This document shows, piece after piece, positions 26,937-40,776 of a stretch of 64,000 nucleotides of DNA. Origin of the DNA: Polynucleobacter sp. 71A-WALBACH (GTDB lineage: Bacteria > Pseudomonadota > Gammaproteobacteria > Burkholderiales > Burkholderiaceae); contig NZ_JACVOP010000001.1 in the NCBI RefSeq assembly GCF_018882365.1, positions 1,301,341 through 1,365,340 on the forward strand, given 5' to 3'. Under the pieces are notes generated by a model. It saw only the letters and a program-made list of their open reading frames with translations. It did not search any database and had not been told where the DNA came from. A program made the position numbers and the translations under genes. Each line of letters begins with the position of its first letter. Positions within the stretch are counted from its first letter, which is position 1.

Positions 26937-27401
26937 TTAGGATGGTGACTTGGCCGAATCAAGACTATCTTGATCAGATTCAGCTAAAGGCCCATTTTTG
27001 AGGAATCCCATAAAGCCACTGTCAGCGTAGGCATCTGGTGGTACGTCATCTGTTAAGAGGGCGGCATCCAATTCAGCAATATCGTTAATGCGGGAGTCTT
27101 GCTGCCATTGGGCAATGCCAATCAGACCAAACACCAACACAATCAACGGCGCAACCCAGCCGACGTTATCCCAGAAAGAGCGTGAGCCTGAAGACCAGTT
27201 TCCAGCAGAGCTGGCTAAAACATGCTGCTGAATGCGAACTTTTTCTGGTTTTTTGACAGAAAGTGCCTTTAGGCGAGCTGCGTACAGACGATCTTTAATA
27301 CCTGCTGGCAAGGATTGGGATCCTTGGCGGAGTAGGGCGGCAGCTGTCAGACCAAATTGATCTGCTTCTGTTGTGCTTAGGATGTCTTCATTGCGATTCA
27401 C
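26937..27401 (-). CDS. DUF3619 membrane protein, candidate anti-sigma factor
   Basis: 154 residues. A cytoplasmic N-terminal domain (ADQFGLTAAALLRQGSQSL, then an amphipathic helix around LYAARLKALS), one membrane helix (about 80-102, WVAPLIVLVFGLIGIAQW) and a short acidic periplasmic tail (LDAALLTDDVPPDAYADSGF). The start overlaps the sigma factor stop by 4 bases. Position, single membrane helix and cytoplasmic helical domain are what an anti-sigma factor shows, but no known anti-sigma zinc motif is seen, so the role is inferred. Confidence 0.83.
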   Translation of the reverse strand: MNRNEDILSTTEADQFGLTAAALLRQGSQSLPAGIKDRLYAARLKALSVKKPEKVRIQQHVLASSAGNWSSGSRSFWDNVGWVAPLIVLVFGLIGIAQWQQDSRINDIAELDAALLTDDVPPDAYADSGFMGFLKNGPLAESDQDSLDSAKSPS

Positions 27402-27967
27402 AGCGTAATTCCTTTTAATTTCAATGCTTTAGCTAGAGTCTGGGTGGCTCTTGAGCAGTGGGTTTTGACGCTTCCCTCGCTACAACTCATCGCAAGGGCA
27501 GTTTCAGTAATACTCAGCTCATCCCAATAACGCATTAGGAAGGCTTCTCGTTGACGGGCAGGCAATTTTGATATTTCTGACTCTAGGGACTGCAAAAGCT
27601 GAGTTCGTTCGAGTTGATGTGCCCCATCTTGGTGAATTTCACTGTCATCAGGGGCTGCAAGTGACTCTAGGGGGTCAAAATCATCACTTTCATCCGATTT
27701 CTTGCCCATATTGGAGAAAAGCGTGACCCAGGTATTTCTGACCTTTTGACGCCTAAACCAGTCGTGAATCCGGTTTTGCAGAATTCTCGTGAAAACCAAC
27801 GGCAGTTCAGCTGCCGGGCGATCCCCATACTTTTCAGCCAGTTTGATCATGGCATCCTGAACAATGTCCAAGGCAGCATCGTCATCTCGCACAGCGTAGA
27901 CCGCCTGCTTGAAAGCGCGCTGCTCAACATTACTCAGAAAGTCAGAAAGTTCTTGGGGTGAAGCCAT
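27398..27967 (-). CDS. ECF (sigma-70 family) RNA polymerase sigma factor
   Basis: 189 residues. Region 2 holds AVYAVRDDDAALDIVQDAMIKLAEKY and TRILQNRIHDWFRRQKVRN. After a variable linker rich in Asp/Glu/Ser, region 4 has LPARQREAFLMRYWDELSITETA and SEGSVKTHCSRATQTLAKAL. It lacks regions 1 and 3, so it is an ECF sigma factor. It is first in the sigma-DUF3619-DUF3106-RDD operon and divergent from ilvI with a 193-base shared region. Many ECF factors activate their own operon. Confidence 0.92.
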   Translation of the reverse strand: MASPQELSDFLSNVEQRAFKQAVYAVRDDDAALDIVQDAMIKLAEKYGDRPAAELPLVFTRILQNRIHDWFRRQKVRNTWVTLFSNMGKKSDESDDFDPLESLAAPDDSEIHQDGAHQLERTQLLQSLESEISKLPARQREAFLMRYWDELSITETALAMSCSEGSVKTHCSRATQTLAKALKLKGITL

Positions 27968-32234: not shown

Positions 32235-33098
32235 TTGAGTACATTTCGTCGTCGTGGCCGTATAGACCGTAGTCGCCTTGCTCCTAAACGCGCAGAGCGT
32301 TCACAGGCTGAGTGGGCTGATGAGTTAGGTGATGGGATCGATTTCGAGGTAGAAGAGTTGCATACCGATAAGCCGCGTCTACGCAGCAAAGGTATTTACC
32401 TTCTTCCCAACGCCTTCACTACCGCGGCTCTGTTCTGCGGTTTCTTTGCCATCGTCAACGCGATGAACCACCAGTTTGAAATAGCTGCTATTGCCATCTT
32501 TGCATCCTTAGTATTGGATGGCATGGATGGTCGCGTGGCACGCATGACCAATACTCAAAGCGCTTTTGGAGAGCAGTATGACTCTCTGGCAGATATGGTG
32601 TCATTTGGTGTAGCTCCAGCACTAGTAGCGTATGAATGGGCTTTAAAAGATTTAGGTAAGTGGGGCTGGTTGGCTGCCTTTACCTATTGCGCGGGTGCCG
32701 CTTTGCGTTTGGCTCGCTTTAATGTCAATACCGGCGTAGTTGATAAGAAGTTTTTCCAAGGCTTGCCGAGCCCAGCTGCTGGCTCCTTAATGGCGGGTTT
32801 TATTTGGCTCGCAGATGACAATAAGATTCCGGTACGCGATACAGCGATTCCCTGGATTACATTCTTTATTGCTGTTTACGCTGGCCTGACCATGGTTTCC
32901 AATGCCCGTTTTTATAGCGGTAAAGCTTTGGATGTTCGCTACCGCGTGCCTTTTGGCGTCATGGTCTTGATGATTCTGACCTTTGTCTTAATCTCCTCTA
33001 ATCCACCCTTAACCCTGTTCGGCCTCTTTGTGGTTTATTCCATATCAGGTTACGTCATTTGGGCCTGGGAGCATTTTAGTGGCCGACGTTTTAGCTAA
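32235..33098 (+). CDS. pssA: CDP-diacylglycerol-serine O-phosphatidyltransferase
   Basis: 287 residues from a TTG start; GGGAATCC lies just upstream. The hydrophilic N-terminal ~55 residues are basic. The CDP-alcohol phosphotransferase signature DGMDGRVARMT...FGEQYDSLADMVSFG (DGxxARx8Gx3Dx3D) is complete, followed by several membrane helices. It forms phosphatidylserine from CDP-diacylglycerol and serine, which psd, 27 bases upstream, then decarboxylates. The non-ATG start may tune its level relative to psd. Confidence 0.94.
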   Translation: MSTFRRRGRIDRSRLAPKRAERSQAEWADELGDGIDFEVEELHTDKPRLRSKGIYLLPNAFTTAALFCGFFAIVNAMNHQFEIAAIAIFASLVLDGMDGRVARMTNTQSAFGEQYDSLADMVSFGVAPALVAYEWALKDLGKWGWLAAFTYCAGAALRLARFNVNTGVVDKKFFQGLPSPAAGSLMAGFIWLADDNKIPVRDTAIPWITFFIAVYAGLTMVSNARFYSGKALDVRYRVPFGVMVLMILTFVLISSNPPLTLFGLFVVYSISGYVIWAWEHFSGRRFS

Positions 33099-33114
33099 TT
33101 TGGAATATTTAGGT

Positions 33115-33120
33115 TATATT
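33115..33120 (+). promoter_or_regulatory. -10 element before the leucine leader peptide
   Basis: TATATT ends 6 bases before the leader ATG at 33127. There is no nearby Shine-Dalgarno sequence for the leader. The -35 is weak. Transcription could also read in from pssA. Confidence 0.4.
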
Positions 33121-33126
33121 TAATCC

Positions 33127-33204
33127 ATGTTGATGAATTTCTCACCCCTTTCTAACTTGCTTCTACTAGCACTAAGCCTACAGCTTGGGGCAGGTAAGGC
33201 CTGA
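33127..33204 (+). CDS. leuL: leuA leader (attenuation) peptide, 25 residues
   Basis: An ATG-to-TGA frame of 25 codons with 9 leucines (positions 2, 8, 11-14, 16, 18, 20). Residues 11-18 read LLLLALSL. Four of these use CTA (positions 13, 14, 16, 18), usually a rare codon, which would sharpen sensitivity to charged tRNA-Leu. It lies 126 bases before leuA and directly ahead of an intrinsic terminator, the classical arrangement for leucine attenuation. It is too short to be called by length alone; the composition and position are the evidence. Confidence 0.85.
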   Translation: MLMNFSPLSNLLLLALSLQLGAGKA

Positions 33205-33270
33205 GTTAATGAGATTAAAGTAATTCATTAGCCACGACATACCAGCCCCAGCAAATTGCTGGGGTTTTTG
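33186..33270 (+). promoter_or_regulatory. Leucine attenuator: terminator and alternative pairing
   Basis: The terminator is CCCCAGC / GCTGGGG (33246-33264, 7-base stem) followed by TTTTTGTTTTT. Upstream, TGGGGC (33186-33191), inside the last codons of the leader, can pair with GCCCCA (33245-33250), which would block the terminator when the ribosome stalls on the leucine codons. A further dyad TAATGA (33207-33212) / TCATTA (33225-33230) may serve as the pause or the competing stem. Folding was done by eye. Confidence 0.75.
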
Positions 33271-33330
33271 TTTTTAGATTCGCATTGAAGTAGTAAACAT
33301 AATTAAGCAATATTGAACCGGAGAGTAGTG

Positions 33331-34878
33331 ATGAGCGACAAAGTAATCATTTTTGATACCACCTTACGTGATGGCGAACAATCGCCTGGCGCCTCAATGA
33401 CAAAAGACGAGAAGGTGCGTATTGCTCGCCAGTTGGAGCGCCTCAAGGTTGATGTAATTGAAGCTGGTTTTGCTGCTAGCTCTGAGGGCGACTTCCAGGC
33501 TATCTCTGCAGTGGCGGCAGCCGTGAAAGATTCAATCGTGTGCTCACTCGCCCGTGCCAACGATAAAGATATTAGCCGTGCTGCTGATGCTTTGAAAGCT
33601 GCTAATGCCAAACGGATTCATGCTTTCTTAGCAACGAGTCCATTGCATATGGCCGTGAAGTTGCGCATGTCTCCTGAAGAAGTATTGGAACAAGCTAAAC
33701 GCTCCATTCGATTTGCCCGAAACTTGGCTGAGGATGTTGAATTCTCAGCGGAAGATGGTTATCGCTCGGAGATGGATTTCCTCTGCAGAGTGGTGGAGGG
33801 CGTTATTAATGAAGGCGCCACTACTATTAACATTCCAGATACCGTGGGTTACGCAACTCCTGAGTTGTATGGCGACTTTATCAAGACCTTGCGCACTCGC
33901 GTTCCCAATTCAGACAAGGCAGTTTGGTCTGTGCATTGTCATAACGACTTAGGGATGGCTGTCGCTAATTCATTGGCCGGCGTCAAAATTGGTGGCGCAC
34001 GTCAAATTGAGTGCACCATTAATGGCTTAGGTGAGCGCGCTGGTAATACCGCCTTGGAAGAGATTGTCATGGCTTTGCGCACGCGTAAGGATTACTTCGA
34101 TATGGTGTGCGGTATTGATGCCACTCAGATCGTTCCCGCATCGAAGTTGGTTTCTCAGATCACTGGTTTTGTAGTTCAGCCAAATAAAGCGGTAGTTGGT
34201 GCGAATGCTTTTGCACATACTTCAGGCATTCACCAGGATGGCATCTTAAAGAACCGCGATACCTATGAAATCATGCGCGCAGAAGATGTGGGCTGGGCTA
34301 CCAACAAGATTGTTTTGGGTAAGTTATCAGGACGCAATGCGTTTAAGCAACGTTTGCAAGAGTTGGGTATCGCGATTGAAGCTGAGGCAGATTTGAATGA
34401 TGCATTTGTCCGCTTCAAATCATTGGCCGATCAAAAATCAGAAATTTTTGATGAGGACATCATTGCCATCATGTCTGATTCTGCTGCTGCTGAAGAAGGT
34501 GAGTTTTATAAATTCATTTCTTTGAGCCAGCACTCCGAAACGGGTGAGCGACCAAAGTCTAAGGTGACCTTCCGTGTTGGCGATAAAGAGGCGAGTTCAG
34601 AGGCTGAAGGAAATGGCCCAGTGGATGCGAGCTTAAACGCGATTGAAGAAATCGTGAAGAGCGGGGCAGAGCAGTTGCTTTACTCTGTCAATGCAATTAC
34701 CTCTGGCACCCAATCTCAGGGCGAGGTTACTGTGAGGCTGGCTAAGGGTGGGCGCATCGTCAATGGTGTTGGAACTGATCCGGACATCATTGCCGCCTCA
34801 GCGAAAGCGTATTTATCCGCACTGAACAAATTGCATGACCCTAGCCAAGCTAAGCTCAACGCGCAGATGACGCCTTAA
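33331..34878 (+). CDS. leuA: 2-isopropylmalate synthase
   Basis: 515 residues from the ATG at 33331, with GGAG 9 bases upstream; an in-frame start at 33313 would lack this site. The HMGL-like barrel begins with [16 protein letters not shown], and has [17 protein letters not shown] with the metal-binding histidines and [16 protein letters not shown]. The C-terminal LeuA dimer domain, the leucine feedback site, covers about residues 365-505. It condenses acetyl-CoA and 2-ketoisovalerate, the first step of leucine synthesis, taking the product of the ilv genes 5 kb upstream. Expected to be controlled by the leader just upstream. Confidence 0.96.
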
Positions 34879-40691: not shown

Positions 40692-40776
40692 GCCGACGTG
40701 GTGAAATTGGTAGACACGCTATCTTGAGGGGGTAGTGGCTTAGGCTGTGCGAGTTCGAGTCTCGCCGTCGGCACCA
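40692..40776 (+). tRNA. tRNA-Leu (anticodon GAG)
   Basis: 85 bases with encoded CCA, class II. The acceptor stem GCCGACG pairs with CGTCGGC, the anticodon stem CTATC/GGTAG (one G-T pair) holds the loop TTGAGGG (anticodon GAG, reading CUC/CUU), followed by a short variable arm and T arm GAGTTCGAGTCTC. It lies between secG and nuoA. Confidence 0.96.

Follow-up and report, generated by a model that had tools for sequence, protein, structure and literature searches.

A probable leaderless leucine attenuator upstream of leuA in Polynucleobacter, and related leader uORFs across Burkholderiales

The leuA leader region

The window, by which is meant the entire 64,000-nucleotide stretch of DNA that was analysed from the freshwater bacterium Polynucleobacter sp. 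71A-WALBACH, carries on its forward strand a gene for 2-isopropylmalate synthase, leuA (33331..34878; NCBIfam NF002087, 889.5 bits against a cut-off of 729; TIGR00973, 683.4 against 598.7), with the Shine-Dalgarno sequence GGAGAG readable at 33320..33325. Upstream on the same strand the open reading frame list gives a pssA-like gene (32235..33098), the last of a run of genes which we take to be ilv, psd and pssA, following the naming in the original prediction and general resemblance. Divergent from the ilv genes is a minus-strand gene (27398-27967), beside a small gene at 26937-27401; its product is presumably an RNA polymerase sigma factor, judged by resemblance only. The interval from the pssA stop (33098) to the leuA ATG (33331) contains first a -10 box, next a 25-codon upstream open reading frame (uORF), then a spacer hairpin and finally an intrinsic terminator followed by its U-tract. 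By DNA search, this leader sequence is present in a single copy in the genome.

The uORF (33127..33204, forward strand; translation MLMNFSPLSNLLLLALSLQLGAGKA) begins 28 nt downstream of the pssA stop. As the original prediction had it, the frame contains nine Leu codons, four of them CTA; the others are three CTT and two TTG (TTG2, CTT8, TTG11, CTT12, CTA13, CTA14, CTA16, CTA18 and CTT20). The candidate control codons form the series CTA CTA gca CTA agc CTA at 33163..33180. Leu tRNA genes with the anticodons UAG, CAG, UAA, CAA and GAG are present in the genome, and that for tRNA-Leu(UAG), the reader of CTA, lies outside the window. The tRNA-Leu(GAG) gene at 40692 had been said to serve codons other than those of the leader, which is correct only in part, as this tRNA would also read the three leader CTT codons. 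No Shine-Dalgarno sequence is visible upstream of 33127. The -10 box, TATATT (33115..33120, forward strand), ends 6 nt 5′ of the leader ATG. Transcription starts about 7 nt downstream of a -10 box, which here places the predicted start at about 33127, although a consensus promoter scan did not call a -35/-10 pair at this hexamer.

Downstream of the uORF, a terminator scan and folding agree on an intrinsic terminator (33244..33275, forward strand), composed of a stem at 33244-33266 and the U-tract TTTGTTTTT. The original prediction was right about its presence and short on its size, since the stem has not 7 base pairs but 10, a core of eight Watson-Crick pairs with closing G-U and A-U pairs. 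It is the one terminator-like site within 32900-33400, where shuffled sequences average 0.4. The terminator 5′ arm pairs best with TTGGGGCAGGTA (region 2; 33185..33196), located in the last codons of the uORF, and the corresponding antiterminator 3′ strand, identified by complementarity and in relatives, is TACCAGCCCCAG (region 3; 33240..33251), which overlaps that arm. The predicted pairing of TGGGGC at the end of the peptide (33186-33191) with GCCCCA at the terminator base (33245-33250) was recovered, and it is extended, across one mismatch, by GGTA (33193-33196) with TACC (33240-33243). A protector (1:2) hairpin, CTAAGC-loop-GCTTGG (33172..33188), precedes it and is supported by folding and by changes on both sides of the stem within the genus. 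The parts on which the element had been called a complete attenuator are thus all present, although this extension and the protector had been missed. A spacer hairpin (33205..33232), also found by folding, immediately follows the stop codon and is nested in the antiterminator loop. One strand is shared by the protector and the antiterminator, and another by the antiterminator and the terminator, a layout that is the same as that of the classical attenuator.

Folding of the region, suggested earlier as a check, gives the anticipated structures. The whole leader (z = -4.18) and the segment 33180-33257 (z = -4.90) are more stable than any of 200 shuffles; the segment 33180-33275 is weaker (z = -2.75), with 3 of 200 shuffles as stable. 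The minimum free energy structure of the untranslated leader contains protector and terminator together (-50.5 kcal/mol). RNA 33186-33257, representing the nascent transcript, folds as the antiterminator (-25.7 kcal/mol), and in RNA 33185-33275 the terminator form reaches -30.3 kcal/mol, compared with -27.4 kcal/mol when the antiterminator is forced.

Conservation, covariation and the start of the uORF

Of the 121 Polynucleobacter genomes searched, 119 gave a LeuA, and upstream DNA was fetched for 117 of these (G029 and G075 were left out). In all 117 loci a scan for a -10 at 6-9 nt, a Leu-rich uORF and a terminator finds the three features together; the suggested check for conserved Leu codons was likewise favourable. 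The nearest 16 leuA loci of a named collection (L002-L017) are 81-99% identical to that of the window, eleven being titled Polynucleobacter and five carrying broader titles. Outside Polynucleobacter, a leader of the terminator type was counted in 37 of 64 named loci (L018-L081). The other 27 comprise 22 without a Leu uORF by the criteria used (among them L027 and L059, whose upstream DNA was shortened), four with a uORF and no acceptable terminator (L018, L045, L046 and L069) and one that was left out for its GTG start (L041). In two Pandoraea loci (L018 and L019) TATATT is followed 7 nt later by an ATG before leuA; the short frame that follows is poor in clustered Leu codons, no terminator was found, and this is perhaps a decayed leader. 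One genus locus (G103, L180; G103:C1:1364254-1365783) has a leuA with eight in-frame stops (six TGA, one TAG and one TAA), while its leader, -10 box and terminator are still recognisable.

Leaders differ in the length and sequence of the peptide N-terminal to the Leu run, while the C-terminal codons, which are conserved, are those that form the antiterminator strand. Several species have in common a short insertion, P/A-S-G/R-K, before the Leu run (L004, L005, L123, L124 and L134; for example NLPSGKLLLALSL). Codon choice differs sharply between leaders and the genes that they precede, as counted in leuA genes long enough to read. CTA provides 33% of Leu codons in genus-type leaders versus 2% of the 1166 Leu codons in their leuA genes, and 50% versus 0% (of 1321) for the other terminator-type leaders, whereas TTG, which accounts for 53% of Leu codons in genus leuA, makes up only 10% in genus leaders.

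Compensatory changes, which the original prediction had proposed to look for, occur in both the protector and the antiterminator stems. Among 115 distinct genus-type leaders (including L002-L017, with the loop length picked per sequence for best pairing), 80 have the protector CTAAGC/GCTTGG with a loop of 5 nt, 12 have CTAGGT/ACCTGG, six CTGGGC/GCTCGG and four CTGAGC/GCTCGG. G-C replaces A-T at two pairs in 14 of the 115 and T-A replaces C-G at a third in 13, and the stem has no broken pair in 109 and a broken one in six. Because the sequences are related, these figures are not counts of independent events.

The antiterminator shows a comparable pattern, with the covariants GGGGC/GCCCC, GGGGT/ACCCC, ACGGGC/GCCCGT and CTGGGGTCTGTG/CACGAACCCCAG. 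Its genus-type register, -20 to -8 from the end of the stop codon, is found in 84 of 152 distinct leaders. The commonest form outside the genus, ACGGGC/GCCCGT, likewise falls within the final codons of the uORF; 21 of the 152 have it at -17 to -11, counted from the stop end. The two terminator arms and the uORF strand change together; written as 5′ arm/3′ arm/uORF strand, the combinations are GGGGC/GCCCC/GGGGT, GGGGT/ACCCC/GGGGT and ACGGGC/GCCCGT/[AG]CGGGC. Exceptions are L160, where a one-sided change breaks the pair, and L154, which has an altered terminator. In single sequences the complementarity is weak: at most 1 of 100 shuffles is as good in just 64 of 152 leaders, and most Comamonadaceae-type leaders are individually near chance, so the case for the antiterminator derives from its fixed position and covariation.

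The distance from the -10 box to the uORF is nearly constant in leaders that were selected by Leu content and terminator rather than by the -10 itself. Of 113 distinct genus-type leaders, 95 have 6 nt between the end of the -10-like hexamer (defined as TA...T with at least four of six positions matching) and the ATG, 16 have 7 nt and two have 8 or 9 nt; for these same spacings the 37 others divide into 20, 15 and two. A spacing of 6 or 7 nt is thus found in 111/113 and 35/37, compared with 29 of 2034 control ATGs (1.4%), and no such hexamer lies 5-9 nt before the ATG of the corresponding leuA genes. Over the wider gap of 6-9 nt all 113 and all 37 have the hexamer, as do 104 of 1640 control ATGs (6.3%), 19% of dinucleotide shuffles of the 40 nt upstream in the AT-rich genus and 4% of those in the other group; given these rates, more weight attaches to the agreement between the groups than to the genus by itself. 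SD-like 4-mers are found at the leader in 9 of 113 genus-type and none of 37 other loci, and at leuA in 108 of 113 and 35 of 37. Some leaders have at least two in-frame ATGs, and in many genus leaders a second one lies 6 nt downstream.

The position of the -10 box suggests that transcription starts near the leader ATG, and the uORF is probably leaderless, transcribed from the ATG or from within a nucleotide or so of it. The -10 spacing, and with it the probable leaderless start, is new in the present analysis. The conserved -10 box within the 28-nt gap after pssA also supports the proposal that leuA is controlled apart from the ilv-psd-pssA genes, even though the promoter scan calls no -35/-10 pair.

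Related uORFs in other Burkholderiales families

Sampling of the order found LeuA in 168 of 200 genomes and provided 60 upstream stretches from 43 of 49 families, of which 59 were usable (one being too short). A Leu uORF precedes the isopropylmalate synthase gene in 35 of the 59 stretches, representing 29 of the 43 sampled families. Thirty of these were detected by a scan requiring a -10, three (L219, L236 and L242) by eye, and two (L252 and L254) are of the terminator type; the scan hits L202, L226 and L251 were excluded as parts of other genes. The alignment took in 23 of the 33 uORFs that are not of the Comamonadaceae type and omitted ten that were more divergent; its consensus is GGCCTGCTGCTGCGCC.CGCGCGCTAA, which encodes GLLLR-x-A-R and variants. 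Leu codons in the terminator-less leaders are mostly CTG (53%), with 11% CTA.

A terminator-like hairpin precedes leuA in 2 of the 33 non-Comamonadaceae-type loci; in the genus-type and other terminator-type groups it does so in 113/113 and 37/37, but those groups were chosen for having a terminator. Single-sequence folds of the terminator-less relatives yielded no common mechanism. In 33 terminator-less loci the first 15 nt after the uORF stop average 49% C and 6% G. A C-rich, G-poor stretch acting as a Rho site was considered and is not upheld over 35 nt, where C is at least three times as frequent as G in just 10 of the 33, which leaves the bias in the first 15 nt as a lead only. By eye, many terminator-less relatives among L203-L257 have a motif like ACCCCCCAATTCGAGYAGTACC about 1-30 nt past the uORF stop; a hairpin without a U-tract, variable in sequence, often comes after it. 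Leu codons of these relatives could also be paired, by eye only, with a GYAGTA motif downstream, a pairing that is not put forward here.

When 399 genomes of the order were searched with a sequence-only model built from the 23 aligned relatives, 100 matched at E <= 1e-6 and 279 at E <= 0.01, many of the latter probably by chance. In a class-wide draw the model matched one of 281 genomes, four of which are listed within the order; the sole match outside the order (L289) has a LeuA relative of 29% identity about 0.3 kb downstream. All of the best 30 model loci, 13 of them from training genomes and 17 new, lie upstream of an isopropylmalate synthase gene, 27 of the LeuA kind and three of another. 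The latter (L271, L277 and L288) precede a LeuA2-type gene whose identity to LeuA does not exceed 29% and which scores above the NF002991 cut-off; L277 alone also passes leuA_yeast, the sequences of L271 and L288 being partial. Of the 30, 27 have a -10 at 6-9 nt; among the 17 new loci 15 do, and one of the misses (L284) was wrongly anchored. In the search of the order the model matched neither the window's own genome nor the nine other genus genomes listed there, and so the tie between the two leader types is drawn from place, leaderless start and Leu run rather than from alignable sequence.

The sensor of the terminator-less relatives looks to be of the same kind, with Rho-dependent termination or translation control as candidate outputs. 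It seems somewhat more plausible than the contrary that the window attenuator descends, as a derived branch, from an ancient leaderless uORF common to the Betaproteobacteria (...GLLLR-x-A-R stop; DNA consensus GGYCTGCTGCTGCGC...GCGCGCTAA), which tracks leucine synthesis before LeuA or a distant LeuA2 gene. Most families would lack the intrinsic terminator and act perhaps via Rho at a C-rich, G-poor stretch past the uORF stop or via leuA translation. The narrower distribution of terminators suggests that they were later additions in Polynucleobacter and Comamonadaceae-type genomes, changing the output while the leaderless sensor was kept.

Proposed mechanism, alternatives and known attenuators

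Given the anatomy, the conservation, the both-sided changes and the -10 spacing, all directly observed, the window element is very probably a ribosome-mediated transcription attenuator through which charged tRNA-Leu governs leuA, with the uORF read as a leaderless mRNA; the transcription start, the stalling positions and the leucine response are those predicted from these features. When leucine is scarce, the ribosome would stall at CTA13, CTA14 or CTA16 (if its footprint is taken to reach some 12 nt beyond the A site) and cover the protector 5′ arm, leaving UGGGGC-N-GGUA free for UACC-N-GCCCCA. The antiterminator would then pair before the terminator 3′ arm is made, and transcription would run on into leuA. 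When leucine is plentiful, a ribosome at the stop codon would mask the antiterminator strand and the terminator would form. It would likewise form in the absence of translation, with the protector hairpin sequestering that strand, and read-through from the ilv genes would therefore end at the leader.

It is unlikely, though conceivable, that a leucine attenuator operates here with ordinary initiation, the transcript coming from further upstream (a promoter inside pssA or ilv read-through) and the uORF having an SD-less start on a leadered mRNA. Such an arrangement would accord with the uncalled -35, the proximity of pssA just 28 nt away, the SD-like 4-mers in 9 of 113 genus-type leaders, the second in-frame ATG 6 nt on in many genus leaders and the 19% of AT-rich genus shuffles with a -10-like hexamer at 6-9 nt. 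It fits poorly with a -10 at 6 or 7 nt in 111/113 and 35/37 leaders, single-ATG clades included, against 1.4% of controls, and with the -10 at 6-9 nt in 15 of 17 model loci from outside the training set.

Two further explanations are each very improbable. The conserved Leu run, the CTA bias, the covariation of protector and antiterminator, the -10 spacing and the related leaders at LeuA2-type genes elsewhere all speak against a hairpin that is merely the end-of-operon terminator of ilv-psd-pssA beside a chance Leu-rich frame, even if the hairpin does sit after pssA and would also stop read-through. Were the uORF product instead a functional small hydrophobic protein, with leuA regulation secondary, its LLLLALSL core would be in keeping, and a trans-acting leader peptide, peTrpL, is described for Sinorhizobium in the accessible part of one report (PMC7298713). 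Against this stand the variable peptide before the Leu run, the coincidence of the conserved C-terminal codons with the antiterminator strand and the lack of a Pfam or NCBIfam family for the leader peptides: six searched against both gave one NCBIfam match far below threshold (E 0.88, 9.8 of 53 bits). A trans role for the peptide is nonetheless conceivable.

Leucine attenuation is best known from gammaproteobacteria, and enteric leu leaders initiate at a Shine-Dalgarno site. The window element is like the E. coli and Salmonella leu attenuator (Rfam RF00512) in that a short uORF carries Leu control codons, CUA among them, and in the alternative hairpins before leuA. It is unlike the enteric layout in that the uORF has no Shine-Dalgarno sequence and is probably leaderless, that leuA follows an ilv-psd-pssA run and that the window has no Rfam match for such a leader. 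Thus the enteric scheme invoked in the original prediction applies to the attenuator layout and not to the start, as the uORF probably begins at the 5′ end of the RNA. At the gathering threshold the window gave only two Rfam tRNA matches, with no RF00512 Leu leader, T-box or riboswitch, and at E values up to 5 the 20 related loci gave no leader family, only four weak matches far under their cut-offs (for example trpB RF04312, 27.5 of 59 bits). For Salmonella, the available portion of one paper describes three CUA codons in the leu leader and discusses CUA as the best leu control codon (PMC1183508).

Leaderless or Shine-Dalgarno-less leaders are reported elsewhere, in sources that were accessible in part. 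In Streptomyces lividans, RNA-seq identifies leaderless leuL uORFs before leuA and leuS (PMC8079986), which resemble the probably leaderless Leu-rich uORF of the window; unlike the window, with its intrinsic terminator, the leuA leader there is described in the available text as having no typical one. Actinobacterial leuA leaders are reported as the LEU element, in which a Leu run pairs with the leuA SD and a pseudoknot is present (partial text of PMC1262725), and the terminator-less betaproteobacterial relatives look closer to that case than the window does, as judged by appearance. The attenuator uORF trpL of Sinorhizobium meliloti, whose ATG is the RNA 5′ end according to the portion available (PMC7298713), offers another parallel, although it concerns tryptophan and an alphaproteobacterium, and the trans roles in antibiotic response reported there have no known counterpart for the window uORF. 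The Corynebacterium glutamicum ilvB leader, known here from a title cited in PMC4046766, is likewise a branched-chain attenuator whose leader peptide is reported to lack a ribosome binding site, and differs in gene, phylum and sequence.

The literature searched, which leaves most subscription literature outside it, contained no report of a leuA attenuator or a leaderless leuA uORF in Betaproteobacteria. Vitreschak in 2004 gave the main older survey of proteobacterial attenuators. A review mentions, in its accessible text, putative leaders before branched-chain genes in various Gram-negative species (PMC6123439), and a survey confined to Rfam models suggests, in the part available, that such leaders arose in gammaproteobacteria with few transfers (PMC3766115). 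For B. cenocepacia, a start-site paper reports leaderless genes and does not name leuA in the main text, the part available, and a study likewise available in part gives 82 short 5′UTRs. The review, the older survey and this 5′UTR list together make an earlier prediction possible.

The attenuator is kept across the genus Polynucleobacter, and the uORF family to which it belongs extends through much of Burkholderiales, with a start that is probably leaderless. The preference for CTA in leaders, when CTA is rare in the same leuA genes, fits the control-codon theory developed for enterics, as far as the accessible part of PMC1183508 sets it out. The expected output is that leuA should be on only under leucine scarcity. 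A leaderless uORF would allow ribosome loading at the very first bases of the transcript, and attenuators depend on the relative timing of polymerase and ribosome. With terminator-bearing and terminator-less forms both at hand, polymerase-ribosome coupling would become testable by comparison.
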